DNA from: Vibrio hippocampi
Lineage (GTDB): Bacteria; Pseudomonadota; Gammaproteobacteria; Enterobacterales; Vibrionaceae
NCBI RefSeq assembly: GCF_921292975.1
Contig: NZ_CAKLCM010000003.1
Span: forward strand, 1,364,001-1,428,000
Length of the DNA: 64,000 bases
Direction: 5' to 3'
The notes below the pieces were generated by a model. It worked only from the letters and a program-made list of their open reading frames with translations, did no database searches and was not told where the DNA came from. Shown piece after piece: positions 1 to 15,256 of this stretch. A program made the position numbers and the translations under genes. Every line of letters starts with the position of its first letter. The stretch's first letter is position 1.

Positions 1-312
1 TAAGCGAGCGGCCAGTGCACCATGACCTAACCCCACTTGTCGTTGCTGTGCAACGCTACCCGGTTTACAAAACGCTTGTAGCCCTTCACCCAGTATCTGT
101 GCGGCTTCTACTGCCGATGACGCGTGTCGATAGAGAGCCAGTGCCGTGCCCAATGTATAAGCGTCGCCTGCGTTATCGAAAGCAATGGGTTGGGTATCAA
201 GCACCCACTGTTTTGCATTAATACCGTGTTGTAAGCAGTACTGGTGTGCCTGTTCAATTGAATCAAGATGGATTTGACTCAGTAGCGATTCGATTTTGCT
301 ATTCATATTCAT
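1..312 (-). CDS. GGGtGRT family protein, N-terminal part (cut by window edge)
   Basis: Reading leftward from an ATG at 312, the frame stays open to the window edge (104 codons). The protein begins MNMNSKIESLL and carries segments typical of the GGGtGRT family: a QPIAFDNAGDAYTLG stretch, a GEGLQAFCKPGSVA stretch and VGLGHG near residue 97. The family is conserved but has no assigned reaction that I know. The start lies 9 bases after the stop of the NifU-like gene, with GAGGG just upstream, so the two are co-transcribed and probably translationally linked. This pairing is known from other bacteria. The catalytic or binding role is unknown; the family call rests on sequence memory. The C-terminal part, which would carry the naming motif, is outside the window. 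Confidence 0.75.
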   Translation of the reverse strand, partial: MNMNSKIESLLSQIHLDSIEQAHQYCLQHGINAKQWVLDTQPIAFDNAGDAYTLGTALALYRHASSAVEAAQILGEGLQAFCKPGSVAQQRQVGLGHGALAARL

Positions 313-320
313 ACCCTCGG

Positions 321-1013
321 TTACGCCTGACGTGGATTGATCGTTGTAACGGCCTCTTCAAAGCGACCATAAGTGCCTATTGCTTGCTCCATCGCTTCTT
401 CGGCGCTCACTCCATCCGTGATCTTGTTCATCATCAAACCCAAATTTAGATAGCGATAGCCGATAATTTCGCGCTGCTCATCGAGAGCTAACTCCATCAC
501 ATACCCTTCCGCCACTTCCATGTATCTGGGTCCTTTCGTCACCGTCGAGTAACTCGTTCCGACCTGACTTCTTTGAGTTTTCCCCAAGTCTTCCAGCCCT
601 GACCCCACCTCAAGTCCATCGGCAGAAAACGCAGACTGGGTACGCCCATAAGCAAATTGCAAGAAGATCTCCCGCATCGCCACATTGATCGCGTCGCACA
701 CCAAATCGGTATTCATCGCCTCCAATATCGTTTTACCTGCAAGTATTTCAGAAGCCATTGCTGCAGAGTGTGTCATACCCGAGCAACCTATCGTTTCGAT
801 TAGCGCTTCTTGAATAACACCTTGCTTGACATTGAGAGTCAGTTTGGCTGCGCCTTGTTGTGGAGCACAAGTACCGACCCCGTGACTTAAGCCGGAGATA
901 GCAATCACGTCTTTGGGATTAACCCAACGCCCTTCCATAGGAATAGGACTAGACGCGTGGAGATCACCCCGCGCTATCGGGCACATTGATTGAATATCTT
1001 GAGTGTATTGCAT
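321..1013 (-). CDS. NifU/IscU-like iron-sulfur cluster assembly scaffold-related protein
   Basis: A 230-residue cytoplasmic protein of the NifU N-terminal-like scaffold group that accompanies GGGtGRT genes. It has four cysteines in its N-terminal half (about residues 11, 49, 78 and 105), in the contexts GVGTCAPQQGAA, IGCSGMTHSAA and LVCDAIN, plausible cluster or metal ligands but not the exact IscU pattern. The C-terminal half (YMEVAEGYVMELALDEQ) is unlike IscU. The first gene of a two-gene unit, it is preceded by a 150-base leader holding a fluoride riboswitch, and its AGGA ribosome site sits 7 bases before the ATG inside a predicted hairpin. Classical isc genes are not adjacent. A role in Fe-S assembly is inferred from family only. 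Confidence 0.7.
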   Translation of the reverse strand: MQYTQDIQSMCPIARGDLHASSPIPMEGRWVNPKDVIAISGLSHGVGTCAPQQGAAKLTLNVKQGVIQEALIETIGCSGMTHSAAMASEILAGKTILEAMNTDLVCDAINVAMREIFLQFAYGRTQSAFSADGLEVGSGLEDLGKTQRSQVGTSYSTVTKGPRYMEVAEGYVMELALDEQREIIGYRYLNLGLMMNKITDGVSAEEAMEQAIGTYGRFEEAVTTINPRQA

Positions 1014-1017
1014 GTCG

Positions 1018-1111
1018 TTTTCCTAAAAGCAGGAAAACAGGTATAGAAGAGTGGCATTCACCCACAGTTTGCTCCCCACGATAGCGAGGCAAAACAGATA
1101 TACCTGTTTTC
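1018..1111 (-). promoter_or_regulatory. Predicted expression platform of the fluoride riboswitch (competing helices, start-site sequestration)
   Basis: Three mutually exclusive pairings are visible in the leader RNA. (1) TTTTCCT (1031-1037) with AGGAAAA (1018-1024) forms a hairpin that buries the AGGA ribosome site. (2) The 13-base arm 1099-1111 is perfectly complementary to 1033-1045, and this would pull the anti-ribosome-site arm away. (3) The same 1105-1111 region can instead close a local hairpin AAAACAG/CTGTTTT with a 6-base loop. In addition 1113-1122, overlapping the aptamer 3' strand, can pair with 1061-1070 over 10 bases. Which state is the fluoride-bound one is inference. Confidence 0.55.
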
Positions 1112-1117
1112 AAAACT

Positions 1118-1167
1118 GTAGGAGTCATCAGCCAGAATGGCGGTTAAGTAGGTGGAACCCCATCACC
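1118..1167 (-). promoter_or_regulatory. Fluoride riboswitch aptamer (crcB motif)
   Basis: Read on the minus strand, the segment follows the crcB/fluoride aptamer: GGTGATGGGGTTCCACC forms P1 (GGTG/CACC), then AACCGCC, a GCCA-TTC-TGGC hairpin, and the conserved GGCTGATGACTCCTAC at the 3' end. GGGGT can pair with ACTCC as the pseudoknot, with one wobble pair. It starts about 154 bases before the NifU-like ATG. Fluoride aptamers usually precede fluoride exporters (fluC/crcB, clc-type), enolase or pyrophosphatase genes; here the downstream genes are different. Confidence 0.88.
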
Positions 1168-1177
1168 TTTCGCCAAA

Positions 1178-1382: not shown

Positions 1383-1601
1383 GTGAAATTAAACTACAAC
1401 GTTGAAAGGCTAAACTCAATTATGTTGGATGATAAAAACTTTCAGTTAATGAAAAATACATTAGAAGGGAAAGTAAAAAACATTGACGTTATCCCTCGTT
1501 GCAGCAAGGAATCGCTCATCGCCGCACTTGATAGTGCATCCTGTATCAATGACCTGATTGGCATCAACAAGGCTATCTTGCAATTGATCAGCAAGGGTTG
1601 A
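1383..1601 (+). CDS. Small hypothetical protein (72 aa)
   Basis: Not recognised. The frame opens with GTG at 1383 (MKLNYNVERL) and runs 72 residues with two cysteines and an amphipathic, mostly helical-looking C-terminus (CINDLIGINKAILQLI). No clear ribosome site precedes the GTG; an internal ATG at 1422 with AAAGG about 11 bases upstream is an alternative start giving 59 residues. It stands alone between the riboswitch operon and the hutZ terminator, pointing away from the first. Composition is AT-rich. It could be a real Vibrio-specific small protein or a chance frame. Confidence 0.4.
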   Translation: MKLNYNVERLNSIMLDDKNFQLMKNTLEGKVKNIDVIPRCSKESLIAALDSASCINDLIGINKAILQLISKG

Positions 1602-1715: not shown

Positions 1716-2255
1716 TTAAGCTTCTGTCTCGTCTTTCACTTTACGATGCCCTTCTTGAAGATGGACAAAATCGACAAGATCATCACCAGATACTTGATAT
1801 GCCTGGCCAAAGCCTTTTACAAACAGACCTTGCTCAGCCTTTAAGTTAAACAGTACAAAATCTTCAAGCTGGCTTAGACCATCAATGATCTCACCAAATC
1901 GCTCTTGCATTTGACCGACAACCTGTGTCCACTGTTCACTGTCACGTTCTACGACCGACGCTGTTGCATCAAAGGTTAAACGCTTACGTGCAAACAACTG
2001 TTTACTGTCTGCTTCGTCTTCGATCAACATCAGCGACACATTGGGGTTAGCAAGAAGGTTTCTAGCATGGCGTGCAATTTGAGAAATCAGCACAAAGTAG
2101 CCTTGTTGATTTTGAACAAAAGGGGCGTAACTCACATTTGGGCGCCCATTTTCATCAACCGTTGCTAATTGAATGGTCTTCTTCTGTTGGCGAAACTCTT
2201 TAATTTCTGGACCGAGACGTCCTTGCAAACGCTCTTGTTTAACCTGTTGATCCAT
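1716..2255 (-). CDS. hutZ: HutZ heme-degrading/heme-utilisation protein
   Basis: A 179-residue protein of the split-barrel FMN-binding-like fold (LATVDENGRPNVSYAPF near residue 30). In V. cholerae HutZ opens the heme ring to biliverdin and releases iron; its axial heme ligand is His170, hydrogen-bonded to Asp132. Both fall at exactly these positions here (EGHRK ending, H170; D132), so the enzyme should be active. It is the last gene of hutW-hutX-hutZ, ends at a strong terminator, and is divergent from the tonB-hut uptake operon. HutX normally delivers heme to it in the cytoplasm. Expected to be iron-repressed together with hutW. Confidence 0.95.
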   Translation of the reverse strand: MDQQVKQERLQGRLGPEIKEFRQQKKTIQLATVDENGRPNVSYAPFVQNQQGYFVLISQIARHARNLLANPNVSLMLIEDEADSKQLFARKRLTFDATASVVERDSEQWTQVVGQMQERFGEIIDGLSQLEDFVLFNLKAEQGLFVKGFGQAYQVSGDDLVDFVHLQEGHRKVKDETEA

Positions 2256-2419
2256 GTTCTTTACCTCACTTTCCTGTCTGGTGCGAGCACCATTATTCTA
2301 TTTATGAATTCGGCTTTAATAACGGAATTTGAACGCTTTTAGTTTTGTATGCGCTGTTGAGCATTTCCGTACATAAAGCCCTCAAGTTAAGCCAGTATGA
2401 CTGGCTTAACTTGGCTTAA

Positions 2420-2938
2420 TTAGTTTTTCAATTGTTGCTGTAGTGCCTTAAAACGATCCACTTGATCTTGAATCAAGACACGCTTTTTGTCTCGTCCAAG
2501 ATAGATTTTAAATACGCTGTTTCCGTCGGCATTAAAGAAGCCAAAATAGTGGCTCTCGCTGCCCATAAAAGGCTTGCTGACTAGCGCGACATCGGTGATC
2601 AGATCAAGCTTAAGGTGACCATGCAACTCGCCCTCTTTACCCATCAAGTTATAGTAGCCGCGTGCCACTTTTCCCTTAGGAAAAGACGCTTTAACTTCAA
2701 ATATTGAACCAAATGAGTGAACAATAGTGGTCACTTTACCCCACTCAGGTAGTGACTCTAGCAGTTCTTGTGTCATGTCACCGGATGCGGTCGCTACCAT
2801 CTCATCCGGTAGTGCAAAAACAACCTCTTTCTCTGAAACAGACAGCTTTTCTGCAATTGCGGCTGGCAATAGTTGAGGCTCAGTTTCCAATACTGCAGCC
2901 ACTTTTTGCTTTAGTTGATTTGACATCTTATGTTCCAT
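2420..2938 (-). CDS. hutX: HutX cytoplasmic heme carrier
   Basis: A 172-residue HutX/ChuX/HuvX-family protein (FALPDEMV near residue 40, TTIVHSFGSIFEVKASFPKGK in the middle, ESHYFGFF near 130). In Vibrio it binds heme in the cytoplasm and passes it to HutZ. The start at 2938 lies 9 bases after the hutW stop and has AGGA 9 bases upstream; an internal Met (MSNQLK, four residues in) is the alternative start. It sits between hutW and hutZ in one operon, with a 160-base gap before hutZ that shows no clear terminator. Confidence 0.95.
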   Translation of the reverse strand: MEHKMSNQLKQKVAAVLETEPQLLPAAIAEKLSVSEKEVVFALPDEMVATASGDMTQELLESLPEWGKVTTIVHSFGSIFEVKASFPKGKVARGYYNLMGKEGELHGHLKLDLITDVALVSKPFMGSESHYFGFFNADGNSVFKIYLGRDKKRVLIQDQVDRFKALQQQLKN

Positions 2939-2947
2939 TGTTAATTG

Positions 2948-4336
2948 TTATCCTGCGAGCCTATGGTGCCCCATAGACTTATTGTTTGCTGTTGATTTGA
3001 CTAATGTATTCATGGCTTGAATGGCGGCTTGAGCCAAAGTCACTGCCCAAAAACTGCCAGCCAGAGTCAGGACAAGATAGTCCTCTTGTACTTCGACTAA
3101 TTGGTTGCGTTGCCAGACCTCAAACACAGGTTTGAGTAGGTCAAAAGTGTCATGTCCCTGAAACTGAGGTAGCTGACTGCGCCTAATAATACCGCTATCA
3201 AATCCCGCTTTTATTGCCGACTCAATTTCTTGCAGCGGTCCTTGTTTCATCATCATGGCAATCGTTGATTCACCTTTTTGCATCGCACTCATGTAGGTGT
3301 CTAATGAACGATGATGCATCACTCCGTAACCGCCTATGTTACCACCCGCACCACAACCGATCGGCAAAACTTCGGCATACGTTTTTGCTAAGCTGTTGTA
3401 TTGGCTGCGCTCACGATTACTTCTCGCCCAGTGGTTAACACTCAACTGCTTGATGTGGTGTTTAGCCATAAAAGCGCTTCCAAGCTCATACATACTGGCT
3501 TTATCTACCGTTGATGCTGGAGAGGGAATACGTCCTTTTTCAACCATGTTAAGCATAGGCGCATCGCCACCAATCACTAATTGATAAAGATCGACGCCGT
3601 GCGCCCCTGTATCAAGAAAATCAATGAGATCTTGTTCAAAAACATCAAGAGTCTGATACGGTAATCCGTAAAGTAGATCGATCACGATGGGCGCTTCATC
3701 TCGAGCACTCAATGCGGCGACACGCTCCAAAACCACTTCTCGATCATCCAATCGCTTAGCACTACGTCTAACTTTAGTATCAAAGCTCTGTACTCCGAAA
3801 GAGAAGCGATTAAAACCACCTTCCAACGCCCGCTCAAACATCTCATCGCTGAATCGATTCGTTCGTCCCTCTAGGGTCATTTCACAATCTGTCGTCAGAG
3901 GGAAATTCTCACGAATCGCTTTACCAAGTTGTTCAATCTGAACAGGTGAAAGGTCGGTCGGTGTTCCGCCGCCAATATAAACGGCATTGAAACGACCAGC
4001 CTGCGTCCAAGGTAATGAGGCTTTCTGCTTAATTTCCGTCAGCAATGCCTGAAAATAGTCATCAACTAACTGACGACTCGCCGCATTCTGGAAAAAGTTG
4101 CAAAACGTGCATCTAACACGACAAAACGGGATGTGGATATAAAGACAGCGGCTTTTAGTCCGCTGCTCATTTACCGAGGTGATCGACTGGAAAATACTCT
4201 CTTTATCCTGCTGGCTCACCGGCATGCTCATACCACCAGCATGGGCAGAATGCTTCTTAACAAAGGCATAGCGGAGAGGGTCAGGGGTGGAGGTGCCAAA
4301 ATGTGAATCGTCTAATTGATTCAGGTCTATTTTCAT
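2948..4336 (-). CDS. hutW: HutW heme-utilisation radical SAM protein
   Basis: A 462-residue radical SAM enzyme of the HemN/HemW-like HutW/ChuW group. The 4Fe-4S-SAM motif CxxxCxxC is at C72, C76 and C79 (PFCRVRCTFCNFF), followed by YIGGGTPTDL typical of HemN-like proteins. ChuW-type enzymes open heme anaerobically by radical chemistry and free iron; HutW is the Vibrio counterpart. It is the first gene of hutWXZ, with its start at 4336 facing the tonB gene across a 167-bp promoter region that holds Fur-like sequences. Together with HutZ this gives both an oxygen-independent and an oxygen-dependent heme-opening route. Confidence 0.93.
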   Translation of the reverse strand: MKIDLNQLDDSHFGTSTPDPLRYAFVKKHSAHAGGMSMPVSQQDKESIFQSITSVNEQRTKSRCLYIHIPFCRVRCTFCNFFQNAASRQLVDDYFQALLTEIKQKASLPWTQAGRFNAVYIGGGTPTDLSPVQIEQLGKAIRENFPLTTDCEMTLEGRTNRFSDEMFERALEGGFNRFSFGVQSFDTKVRRSAKRLDDREVVLERVAALSARDEAPIVIDLLYGLPYQTLDVFEQDLIDFLDTGAHGVDLYQLVIGGDAPMLNMVEKGRIPSPASTVDKASMYELGSAFMAKHHIKQLSVNHWARSNRERSQYNSLAKTYAEVLPIGCGAGGNIGGYGVMHHRSLDTYMSAMQKGESTIAMMMKQGPLQEIESAIKAGFDSGIIRRSQLPQFQGHDTFDLLKPVFEVWQRNQLVEVQEDYLVLTLAGSFWAVTLAQAAIQAMNTLVKSTANNKSMGHHRLAG

Positions 4337-4413
4337 AACGTACTCGTTGTTACAGATAGCCTAAACCGAGTAGGCCAAATTTAAATCTCGATCGATCATA
4401 ATTGGTGACAATT

Positions 4414-4444
4414 GATAATGCAATTGATAATTGCTTTCATTTAT
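4414..4444. promoter_or_regulatory. Candidate Fur box(es) in the hutW/tonB divergent promoter
   Basis: Two GATAAT hexamers 12 bases apart (4414-4419 and 4426-4431) are followed by TCATT. The second matches 11 of 19 positions of GATAATGATAATCATTATC. The position between two iron-uptake operons supports Fur control; exact footprint unknown. Confidence 0.6.
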
Positions 4445-4503
4445 ATTTCGTTGCATACTTTACGCGATTGTTTTGAAGAGATGTTATTAGAGGTTCTCTA
4501 AAA

Positions 4504-5289
4504 GTGAACGTTGCACGATATGCCGTTGCTGGCGCGATTTCGGTGGGCCTCCACCTTGCGTTTATGTTAGCCAATGAAACTAAGCCTGTTTTTGCCATGC
4601 CTGCGGGTAGCACGTCTACGTCTGTTTCTCTCTCTTTTGTTGCCCCAACACCTAAAGCCCAAGCCCAGGAACCGATTAAAGAGCCTGCGCCAGAGCCAGT
4701 TAAACCAGAGACATCACAACCTCAAGAAGTCGTTGAAACAAAAAAACAAATCGTGGAACCGACACCTACGCCACCGAAACCCGTTGAAAAAACGGTGAAA
4801 AAGCCCGTAGAAAAAAAAGTCCCTAAGAAAAAAACCACAAAGCCAAAACCTAAAAAGCCGGTCGAACCGAAACCCGTCGCCCAGCAGAAACAGAAAAAGC
4901 CTAAGCCACCGGAAACTTCCCCAAAACCACCGGAGCCCAAAGAAAATACGACTGAGCCAACACCAGAAGAAACACCACAAATCGTCAATAGCGGGGTTTC
5001 GAGCAAGCCTATCGTTGTTGAAAAACCTTCGTTTTTGAGCAAGCCCGTTAGTCCAAGATACCCACGTATCGCAAGAAAAAGAGGCATTGAAGGCACCGCC
5101 ACCTATGAGATTTGGATTAATGCTCAAGGTCAGCAAACACAACATATTCTGATTTCATCATCCGGTGCTGAAATCCTCGATAAATCGGCGCTTGATGCCA
5201 TTAAACAGTGGAAGTTTTCCACCCATAAAATAGACGGTGTCGCGATTGCACACCGAATTCGGATCCCTGTTCGCTTTAATTTGGATTAA
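4504..5289 (+). CDS. tonB: TonB energy transducer (TonB1 type)
   Basis: A 261-residue TonB. It starts with GTG (AGAGG about 10 bases upstream), has an N-terminal membrane anchor (YAVAGAISVGLHLAFML), a long Pro/Lys/Glu-rich periplasmic linker (about residues 50-165, runs of PKPVEK-like repeats) and a C-terminal TonB domain (SPRYPRIARKRGIEGTATYEI ... LDAIKQWKF). It couples inner-membrane proton motive force through ExbB-ExbD to outer-membrane heme and siderophore receptors. First gene of tonB-exbB-exbD-hutBCD, 2 bases before exbB, the arrangement of V. cholerae TonB1. Strong antisense open frames across the linker are composition artefacts. Confidence 0.95.
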   Translation: MNVARYAVAGAISVGLHLAFMLANETKPVFAMPAGSTSTSVSLSFVAPTPKAQAQEPIKEPAPEPVKPETSQPQEVVETKKQIVEPTPTPPKPVEKTVKKPVEKKVPKKKTTKPKPKKPVEPKPVAQQKQKKPKPPETSPKPPEPKENTTEPTPEETPQIVNSGVSSKPIVVEKPSFLSKPVSPRYPRIARKRGIEGTATYEIWINAQGQQTQHILISSSGAEILDKSALDAIKQWKFSTHKIDGVAIAHRIRIPVRFNLD

Positions 5290-5291
5290 TC

Positions 5292-5990
5292 ATGGAACAA
5301 CTGCATTACATTGAACAACAACTCGGATTGATGGCTTGGCCACTCATTATTTGCTCAGCGATTACCGCTATGATCATTATCGAGCGCCTATTTCAAATCG
5401 CGATTAGTGCTGGCAGCGGTCACCGTGCGCTGCGCCAATCTCTAAAACAGACCTCCGCACATAGTGAAAAAGAGATCGAAGCGCTAGCAAAGAGCTTTAG
5501 CAGTAAGCGCCCTTTACTCTACAAAGGCGTCGCTATGCTGTTAGCGCATCACTCATTCGCTAAATCACTACGCGAAGATGCCGCTTCTATTTGGCTACAA
5601 GACAAACGACACCAACTGCATTCTGGACTGAGATTGCTCTCGCTCATTGGTGTCATTAGCCCTCTTATCGGTCTTTTGGGTACCGTACTTGGTCTTATTG
5701 AGATGTTCAAAGGGATTGCGGCGGCTTCGGGTAACGTCACACCCAATGATCTTGCCGATGGTCTTGGGCTAGCAATGCGCACGACAGCGGTCGGTCTGAT
5801 CATTGCGCTTCCTGCTATTTCGGGCGCACAACTCATTGGTCTTTGGGCAGACAGAATCATCGCTAAGTTGGAGCACACTCTCAACTATGCCAACTTATGG
5901 CTTGAGGGTGTCGAGATTCAACACTCTCGCCGTGATCCTGTGAAGGTAGACAACATCGATAAACTTCAGGCGACAGCGCAACATGATTAG
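5292..5990 (+). CDS. exbB: ExbB proton-channel subunit
   Basis: A 232-residue MotA/TolQ/ExbB-family inner-membrane protein. Three hydrophobic helices are seen, near residues 13-35, 115-140 (LSLIGVISPLIGLLGTVLGLIEMF) and 158-180 (GLAMRTTAVGLIIALPAI), the last two being the conserved channel helices. It forms the pentameric stator that with ExbD powers TonB. Translation begins 2 bases after tonB and its 3' end overlaps exbD by 8 bases, so the three are made together. Probably dedicated to heme uptake given the hut neighbours. Confidence 0.95.
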   Translation: MEQLHYIEQQLGLMAWPLIICSAITAMIIIERLFQIAISAGSGHRALRQSLKQTSAHSEKEIEALAKSFSSKRPLLYKGVAMLLAHHSFAKSLREDAASIWLQDKRHQLHSGLRLLSLIGVISPLIGLLGTVLGLIEMFKGIAAASGNVTPNDLADGLGLAMRTTAVGLIIALPAISGAQLIGLWADRIIAKLEHTLNYANLWLEGVEIQHSRRDPVKVDNIDKLQATAQHD

Positions 5991-6399
5991 AGCCTCAAAC
6001 TCCACGGAATCGAATAGCCTCTTTCCAGATCTCACGCCATTACTGGATATTATCTTTATCGTCATGGTGTTTCTGATGCTGACGGCATCGGTCAAACTGG
6101 AATCCCTACAGGTGGATTTACCGACGACAGACAGCAGTGCCGTCACGGAAGTTGATAGCCAATCACTCACCGTCAATATACTCGCCAATGAGCCGTATTG
6201 GGCAATTAACAAGCACCAGTATATCGACTGGGATAACTTCACTTTGGCTCTGCTAGAACAATCTCAATCATCTAAGCAACCCATCATTATTGGGGCTGAA
6301 AAAACCGCTGACGTTCAACATCTGGTGAAACTGTTGGCTTTTATGCAAGAAAACAATATCCCAGCGACTCAGTTATTAACTGAACAAGAGTCTCATTAG
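5983..6399 (+). CDS. exbD: ExbD proton-channel subunit
   Basis: A 138-residue ExbD/TolR protein. A short cytoplasmic N-terminus is followed by LFPDLTPLLDIIFIVMVFLMLTAS, the single membrane helix with the conserved Asp (LLDIIF, near residue 25) that carries protons. The C-terminal periplasmic domain follows. The start overlaps exbB by 8 bases and hutB begins 16 bases later. It works inside the ExbB pentamer to drive TonB. Confidence 0.95.
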   Translation: MIRASNSTESNSLFPDLTPLLDIIFIVMVFLMLTASVKLESLQVDLPTTDSSAVTEVDSQSLTVNILANEPYWAINKHQYIDWDNFTLALLEQSQSSKQPIIIGAEKTADVQHLVKLLAFMQENNIPATQLLTEQESH

Positions 6400-13999: not shown

Positions 14000-15076
<1,077 letters not shown>

Positions 15077-15118
15077 TTAGCTACTACAAAGAGTCAGGAA
15101 AAATTAATTACCTTTACT

Positions 15119-15186
15119 CTTCGTAATCAGCACTTTACGGGGACTGGTAGAAACCCCCAAACCATATCATTGGGGTTATACGAAGC
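15119..15186 (-). promoter_or_regulatory. Adenine (purine-class) riboswitch upstream of add
   Basis: The minus-strand RNA closes P1 (CTTCGTA/TACGAAG), has the L2 loop TGATATGG, the invariant J2/3 TTTCTACC and the J3/1 stretch CTGATTACG with U at the base-specificity position, hence adenine rather than guanine. Loops and J2/3 are identical to the V. vulnificus add aptamer. P3 has one mismatch. CTCTTAA in the downstream leader can pair with the add ribosome site TTAAGGG, which suggests translational control. Confidence 0.93.
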
Positions 15187-15256
15187 AAACCCGATCACTA
15201 TAACCGAGCTTGCTTTTGAAAAAAAGTAAACCGTTGAAGTTAATCGTAATTAACGA

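Follow-up and report, generated by a model that had tools for sequence, protein, structure and literature searches.

In the genome of Vibrio hippocampi, an RNA of the fluoride riboswitch class (RF01734) stands directly before a NifU-like and a GGGtGRT gene, while in relatives RNAs of this class precede CLC or crcB genes. This raises the question of what the two proteins do and whether their function is related to fluoride. We analysed a stretch of 64,000 nucleotides around this locus, which is referred to as the window.

The fluoride aptamer and the operon behind it

1..312, minus strand: 5' part (104 of 326 codons) of the GGGtGRT gene (PF14057, 113.1 bits on the fragment)
321..1013, minus strand: first gene of the pair, coding for a NifU/IscU-fold protein of 230 residues (PF01592 NifU_N)
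1112-1176, minus strand: fluoride riboswitch aptamer, RF01734 (61.7 bits against a cut-off of 34, full model 1-64)

The aptamer matches RF01734 with an E-value of 1.1e-14 in the 64 kb window, and this is the only match to the model in a search of the whole genome. Its core is the canonical fluoride aptamer that the initial annotation had placed at 1118-1167. In the RF01734 alignment, the strands GGGGU (loop) and ACUCC, which we take to be the pseudoknot strands of the fluoride aptamer, pair by eye with one G-U. Judged by its sequence, the aptamer is an ordinary member of its class, with which it shares aptamer sequence, structure, and the position in a 5' leader. It differs in that, in Vibrio, it precedes the NifU-like/GGGtGRT pair without an exporter and in that its expression platform looks translational.

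The 3' end of the aptamer is separated by 98 nt from the start codon of the 230-residue gene. The GGGtGRT gene starts 8 nt after the NifU-like gene and leaves the window; the full gene (L002:8332-9312) codes for 326 residues. The arrangement of both genes as an operon behind the leader was confirmed, and so was the earlier statement that they are not followed by a fluoride exporter, crcB being located on another contig (G000:C1). Upstream of the riboswitch lies a divergent open frame of 72 aa (1383-1601, plus strand) without a Pfam or NCBIfam match.

The predicted expression platform

Leaders from 25 loci of Vibrionaceae and Shewanella, several of them near-copies, were compared, with 200 shuffles per pairing. 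Four strands recur across the 25 leaders (A, A', B, and C), and C is able to pair with either B or D.

1111..1122, minus strand: strand A, the 3' end of the aptamer, which can pair with A' in an anti-aptamer helix (A:A' energy)
1099..1111, minus strand: strand B (GAAAACAGGUAUA), right after the aptamer, partner of C (B:C energy)
1061..1071, minus strand: strand A' (CAAACUGUGGG), partner of A (shuffle test and leader alignment)
1032..1045, minus strand: strand C (UAUACCUGUUUUCC), for which both B and D, the ribosome-binding region, are possible partners (partner overlap)
1017..1024, minus strand: strand D (AGGAAAAC), Shine-Dalgarno-like, 3 nt before the ATG (sequence; sequestering hairpin in the predicted fold)

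The energy of A:A' is matched by at most 10 of the 200 shuffles in 24 of the 25 leaders (some near-identical), and this helix is altered on both sides in L003, L017, L018, and L044. The same holds for the energy of B:C in 18/25 leaders and for the pairing energy of D in 14/25, and in 19/25 the segments that pair best with B and with D have at least 5 nt in common. Helix A:A' crosses helix B:C, so that fluoride, by keeping A inside the aptamer, would leave B free to take C; this would release D and turn translation ON. As modelled, the platform is probably a fluoride-ON switch acting on translation.

A platform based on a transcription terminator was rejected because no terminator was found at 900-1450. 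Simple two-state folding was rejected as well, since the ribosome site (D) of the window leader is paired in both computed states. When the aptamer strand is held, the B:C state is the energy minimum in three of the seven leaders tried and lies 2.2-6.1 kcal/mol above the minimum in the other four (6.1 in the window leader). With D paired either way and B:C being the minimum in 3/7 leaders, the proposed platform leans on conservation more than on energies.

The two proteins

The initial annotation had identified the gene products as a NifU-like scaffold protein and a GGGtGRT protein, and both assignments hold. The NifU-like protein matches PF01592 (NifU_N) with 24.4 bits against a cut-off of 22 over residues 32-101; its counterpart in the deltaproteobacterial MAG locus L082 scores exactly at the cut-off (22.0 bits). 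The NCBIfam equivalog cut-offs for IscU and NifU are missed (33.9 of 187.9 and 26.6 of 192.4 bits, respectively). Residues 38-125 have an IscU-like fold. The IscU ligand set is presumably Cys37, Asp39, Cys63, and Cys106; in the profile alignment Gln53 corresponds to Cys37, Ala55 to Asp39, and a conserved cysteine (Cys77) to Cys63. IscU Cys106 is unaligned; the NifU-like protein has an invariant Cys106, which could be its counterpart as far as the sequence tells.

The protein thus shares with the IscU/NifU N-terminal scaffold and SufU the fold and the equivalent of Cys63, but it is longer, with an extra C-terminal part, has the Cys37 and Asp39 equivalents replaced, and has GGGtGRT as its regular partner. 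Of the best 80 loci from a GGGtGRT scan of GTDB genomes, 70 have the two genes side by side (strict motif test).

The second protein is a full-length member of the GGGtGRT family (PF14057, 553.8 bits at full length against a cut-off of 27), for which we know of no function. Its structural model gave no Foldseek match at E<=0.001, and no solved structure related in sequence was found, the two rows at E 0.58 being chance matches. Matches to a CODH-like and a SIS-like fold were too weak for an assignment. Neither protein of the pair matched a known dehydratase family, and enolase (TIGR01060, PF00113) is absent among the Pfam and NCBIfam matches of both, so that any enolase substitute formed by the pair would be non-homologous. 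No literature connecting GGGtGRT with fluoride was found under that family name, and no paper linking fluoride riboswitches to this pair was found; the founding riboswitch paper or its supplements may list it.

Some Bacteroidota genomes encode additional C-terminal GGGtGRT fragments (about positions 281-327). In G1287, G1321, and G1322 these lie close to the complete gene, while in G1232 they are on a different contig.

Pair and switch in the genus and order of the window

Among 99 genomes sampled from the genus of the window, RF01734 was found in 45 (over the cut-off in 41) and PF14057 in 35. At all 35 PF14057 loci, RF01734 is located 812-995 nt upstream on the same strand, an association far beyond chance (Fisher P about 6e-21, from genome counts not corrected for relatedness). 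Two findings that would have spoken against the initial annotation, a missing RF01734 hit and a missing co-occurrence of leader and pair in other genomes, are thus not observed. At the other six over-cut-off switches (G014, G023, G040, G059, G074, and G080), a gene of the CLC type follows on the same strand, as assigned by its GGNNLI signature and, for two of them, by Pfam. The consulted part of PMC11139923 names GNNLI as a mark of fluoride-specific CLC proteins. Within one genus, one RNA class precedes either a fluoride exporter gene or the pair.

The gene crcB is present in 92/99 genomes, and those without it are the six genomes with a CLC switch and the 1-Mb genome G025. All 35 pair genomes thus have crcB elsewhere. 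Six further RF01734 matches are below the cut-off; two of them (G031 and G089) lie inside one type of coding frame, a pyrophosphatase by eye, and for the remaining four the locus contains no pair and no CLC gene.

In a draw from the phylum, the GGGtGRT family was found in 9/349 genomes, over the cut-off in eight, seven of which belong to the genus of the window. A draw of 295 genomes from the order contained 45 with GGGtGRT, and 22 of these carry the switch: 13/13 of the window's genus, 6/6 of one genus of another family, and three more. The 23 carriers without a switch are 15 members of family f107, six of genus f111, G975, and G1173; for most of them, the scan covered 1.5 kb to either side of GGGtGRT and would miss a switch farther away. 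In G1173 (L213), GGGtGRT is split in two pieces and there is no switch at the locus, which is an apparent case of module decay.

Pair and switch in other lineages

Seven of the best 80 loci have the switch at the pair, namely all six from Vibrionaceae and Shewanella (L039-L044, with L042 from V. splendidus and L043 from V. fluminensis) and L082. When 33 genomes of this set were searched as a whole, RF01734 was detected in 10 and exceeded the cut-off in eight; it is at the pair in the same seven and elsewhere in the genome in Clostridium neonatale. The remaining sampled pair loci, largely from gut anaerobes, are mostly switch-less. The fact that this applies to most pair loci outside Vibrionaceae and Shewanella suggests that the activity of the pair is general and that fluoride control looks like an addition, by which this activity was recruited.

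Switch-led clusters are nevertheless found at a considerable distance. L034 comes from the phylum of the window but from a different class, probably the Alphaproteobacteria; a switch (55.9 bits) lies directly at its pair, and in a set of 199 genomes of its order there is no other carrier. In the phylum to which L082 belongs, GGGtGRT occurs in 8/297 genomes (seven full length), and three of these seven are in switch-led clusters. L082 has the order switch, PAP2, HAD, PAP2, crcB, DUF190, sulfatase, pair. L132 consists of a switch, CLC, a PAP2-like gene (by eye), two others, a second switch, crcB, DUF190, and the pair. In L134, a switch and a gene for a dynamin-like GTPase precede the pair, which is followed by another switch and a Na+/H+ exchanger gene. 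In L131, L133, L135, and L136, no switch was found within 12-14 kb around the pair.

In the Bacteroidota family of L072 (Draconibacterium), 36/120 genomes have GGGtGRT. In 19/33 loci examined, crcB and DUF190 are upstream of the pair on the same strand, and in 15 of these 19 crcB and DUF190 adjoin each other. In L229, L232, L236, and L243, crcB and DUF190 are about 1.1 kb apart, with an opposite-strand gene between them in the two that were inspected. Rfam places RF01734 directly before crcB in 6/18 loci (L221, L222, L230, L235, L239, and L245), and a purpose-built fluoride-switch model run on 32 loci found the same six.

In a tree of 99 rows, the switch label needs four changes, three of which are forced by starred branches. 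These changes, together with the distant switch-led clusters, indicate that several distant lineages have either acquired or retained the link to fluoride. We are confident, close to certainty, that the pair is a fluoride-response module. The initial annotation had suggested a new class of fluoride-resistance system that protects or rebuilds damaged metal centres; in spirit this stands, in that the two genes seem to form a fluoride-response module of a new type, and what changes is the proposed function (see below).

Two further observations concern these lineages. The genome that contains L082 and L119-L121 (G464) has five fluoride riboswitches and three enolase genes, one switch standing before an antiporter-like gene (by eye). 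A redox-type protein of the C_GCAxxG_C_C family (PF09719) is encoded between the pair and enolase in L072 (7058-7522), and also after the pair in several relatives.

Enolase as neighbour and as missing gene

Few enzymes are as highly conserved as enolase, which is also a classic target of fluoride. When the open frames around the best 80 loci were clustered into families, those with members at four or more loci were, besides the pair itself, a group of generic ATPases, an artefact of antisense frames, and enolase, which is thus the only non-generic neighbour family at this level. It is found at four loci (from Clostridium, Draconibacterium, Faecalibacillus, and Akkermansia), compared to 0.2-0.4 expected by chance (P 0.00008-0.001). 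In the Bacteroidota family, enolase follows the pair on the same strand in 5/33 loci. The genome of L082 has a second switch-led operon (L121) with the order HAD-crcB-DUF190-enolase. The position after crcB-DUF190 is thus taken by enolase in one operon and by sulfatase and then the pair in the other.

In 48 pair-bearing genomes searched as a whole, enolase was found in 31 and was not detected in 17, while it is present in 14/14 control genomes. Fifteen of the 17 are titled MAG and may be incomplete. Among the 17 of the 48 genomes that are not titled MAG, enolase is absent in two, both from Oscillibacter (Oscillibacter valericigenes An890 and Oscillibacter sp. 1-3; 2.8 and 4.5 Mb). The supported tree clade that holds both has 6/6 tested genomes without enolase (P about 0.001, computed by hand and post hoc). 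Enolase is present in all four tested genomes of Vibrio, Aliivibrio, Shewanella, and Photobacterium.

That gut and rumen bacteria can lose enolase has been published independently (PMC2914790, PMC6118326, PMC11187502, and PMC11257099, each in part). Isolates without enolase are reported to be rare (<0.5% of >30,000; PMC6118326), and the replacement for the missing enzyme is described as unknown in the sections consulted of PMC11187502 and PMC11257099. Enolase-positive and enolase-negative Butyrivibrio were compared, and the available portion of that study reports no substantial complementing gain (PMC6118326); this fits a substitution by the pair only if the pair is present in both groups. Extracts of B. 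proteoclasticus, an enolase-less Butyrivibrio, had very low enolase activity (PMC2914790, in part), so that any substitute in this organism would have to be labile or of another kind. For the inhibition of enolase by fluoride, the Ki is about 80 uM, and fluoride riboswitch operons often include enolase (excerpts of PMC11139923).

Iron response and proteomes

The pair and enolase respond to iron in opposite directions in Clostridium pasteurianum, where in the early phase Fe+ raises GGGtGRT 7.1-fold and the NifU-like protein 2.4-3.7-fold and enolase is 4.1-4.8-fold higher at Fe- (PMC5395762, Table 2). A second study, on Bacteroides thetaiotaomicron, agrees in part with this pattern: at low iron the pair is down 11-12.8-fold, an operon with the phosphoglycerate mutase gene gpmA is up 15-24-fold, and the enolase operon is up 2.0-7.7-fold, which is not significant (P 0.144; PMC10434189, in part).

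In chicken gut Bacteroidetes, GGGtGRT is highly expressed and NifU is expressed. Phosphoglycerate mutase and enolase are expressed weakly or not at all, from which the authors themselves inferred a diversion to serine (PMC11204068, as far as consulted). A study of a rumen proteome names GGGtGRT and NifU together with GAPDH, PEPCK, and PPDK among co-shifting proteins (part of PMC7035244).

What the pair may do

The neighbours, the iron response, the missing enolase genes, and the proteomes point to the enolase step. In our preferred reading, the pair substitutes for enolase at this step in an iron-dependent and fluoride-tolerant manner, possibly covering the whole segment from 3-phosphoglycerate to phosphoenolpyruvate (PEP); we assign it a probability of roughly 0.47, slightly below even odds. 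The RNA, the genes, the clusters, their recurrence, and the missing enolase matches were computed; the metal, the reaction, the fluoride immunity, and the direction of the switch are what we infer.

The mechanism would be as follows. The fluoride-ON riboswitch induces a two-protein enzyme module, in which the NifU/IscU-fold and GGGtGRT proteins would form one iron-dependent (probably Fe-S) enzyme. This enzyme would convert 2-phosphoglycerate to PEP, or span the conversion of 3-phosphoglycerate to PEP, and, unlike ordinary enolase, would have no Mg2+ site for fluoride to block. Vibrio has an ordinary enolase and a switch-less crcB elsewhere; there, fluoride would induce the substitute, and glycolysis could continue while enolase is poisoned. 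Many anaerobes encode the pair without fluoride control, and some appear to have dispensed with enolase entirely.

Fe-S dehydratases remove water from hydroxy acids and are oxygen-sensitive. These traits would suit the anaerobic distribution of the pair and the very low activity in Butyrivibrio extracts. A more specific proposal is that the pair is the sought enolase substitute of the enolase-less anaerobes (perhaps replacing both phosphoglycerate mutase and enolase), an oxygen-sensitive Fe-S enzyme unrelated to enolase, and that facultative bacteria have put this fluoride-immune pair under fluoride control. We regard this as tentative, with the balance leaning somewhat against it.

The alternative closest to the initial annotation is that, under fluoride damage, the pair serves to build or mend Fe-S clusters or to provide iron, with GGGtGRT as carrier or chaperone and the NifU-like protein as scaffold. 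It draws on the NifU_N domain at the cut-off, on the IscU-like fold of residues 38-125, and on the fact that both proteins track iron supply. However, the IscU ligands are not conserved (Gln at Cys37, Ala at Asp39) and the equivalog cut-offs are missed by far. Moreover, a cysteine desulfurase or assembly gene is not among the families present at four or more of the best 80 loci but enolase is, and the enolase-less genomes would be left unexplained. We consider cluster assembly or repair unlikely; the neighbours, the iron data, and the enolase-less genomes point to the enolase step rather than to metal-centre repair.

The pair might also act in central metabolism as an iron-dependent enzyme and ease fluoride stress at another step, e.g. 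by clearing a phospho-metabolite that piles up behind blocked enolase or pyrophosphatase, or in serine or glycerate metabolism. The same gene clusters and iron data would be accounted for, PAP2 and HAD phosphatases share one operon with the pair, there is a slight chance of a SIS-like phosphosugar-binding motif, and the co-shift with GAPDH, PEPCK, and PPDK in the rumen would fit (PMC7035244, in part). Taken alone, such an activity explains neither the pair genomes without enolase nor the opposite iron response of enolase, and we rate it as improbable.

Alternatively, the enolase-less genomes could represent assembly gaps, the pair being an iron protein of general function that has enolase as a neighbour by coincidence. 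The proportion of MAGs (15/17) and the small number of loci with enolase (4 of the best 80) are in line with this, but one clade is enolase-less in 6/6 genomes, including two non-MAGs of 2.8 and 4.5 Mb, and enolase loss in gut and rumen bacteria was reported independently. We thus judge it quite improbable.

A drift of the aptamer to a different ligand, with no relation of the pair to fluoride, is hardly credible, although the initial annotation had kept altered specificity as an option: its one point in favour is the exporter-less operon in Vibrio, and a changed ligand was rejected on account of the canonical core (61.7 bits) and of the RF01734 copies that precede CLC-type exporter genes (GGNNLI) in sister genomes, with the pair also being located in crcB operons of other phyla.

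A substitution at the enolase step would have two parallels. Flavodoxin and ferredoxin are exchanged such that an iron-using protein serves when iron is ample and an iron-free counterpart when it is scarce. The likeness is in working only, not in kinship, and the proposed counterpart here is the Mg2+-dependent enolase. The other parallel is the enolase that is itself controlled by a fluoride riboswitch (PMC11139923, in part), which likewise keeps the enolase step going under fluoride, as would the crcB-DUF190-enolase operon behind a switch in L121; the genes in the window, in contrast, are not enolase homologues.

If the reading as an enolase-step enzyme holds, the enzyme would be of a new kind, the riboswitch itself being ordinary. 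The pair would then address the published puzzle of the missing enolase in gut, rumen, and symbiotic bacteria, for which the fluoride switch of Vibrio points to a concrete candidate. Two expressed, uncharacterised gut proteins would be given a role, and iron would be exchanged for magnesium in an enzyme of central metabolism. As a principle of fluoride resistance, replacement of the poisoned enzyme would be added to exporting fluoride or making more enzyme.

Other features of the window

A block of heme-utilisation genes adjoins the locus (1716-6399), with genes for a PNPOx-type (HutZ-like) protein, ChuX/HutX (PF06228), and a radical SAM protein (HutW-like); it continues with TonB/ExbB/ExbD-like genes, as seen by eye. 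Farther on, a purine riboswitch (RF00167, 74.5 bits; 15104-15203, minus strand) is located ahead of a gene on the same strand (14000-15013), which by eye resembles adenosine deaminase.
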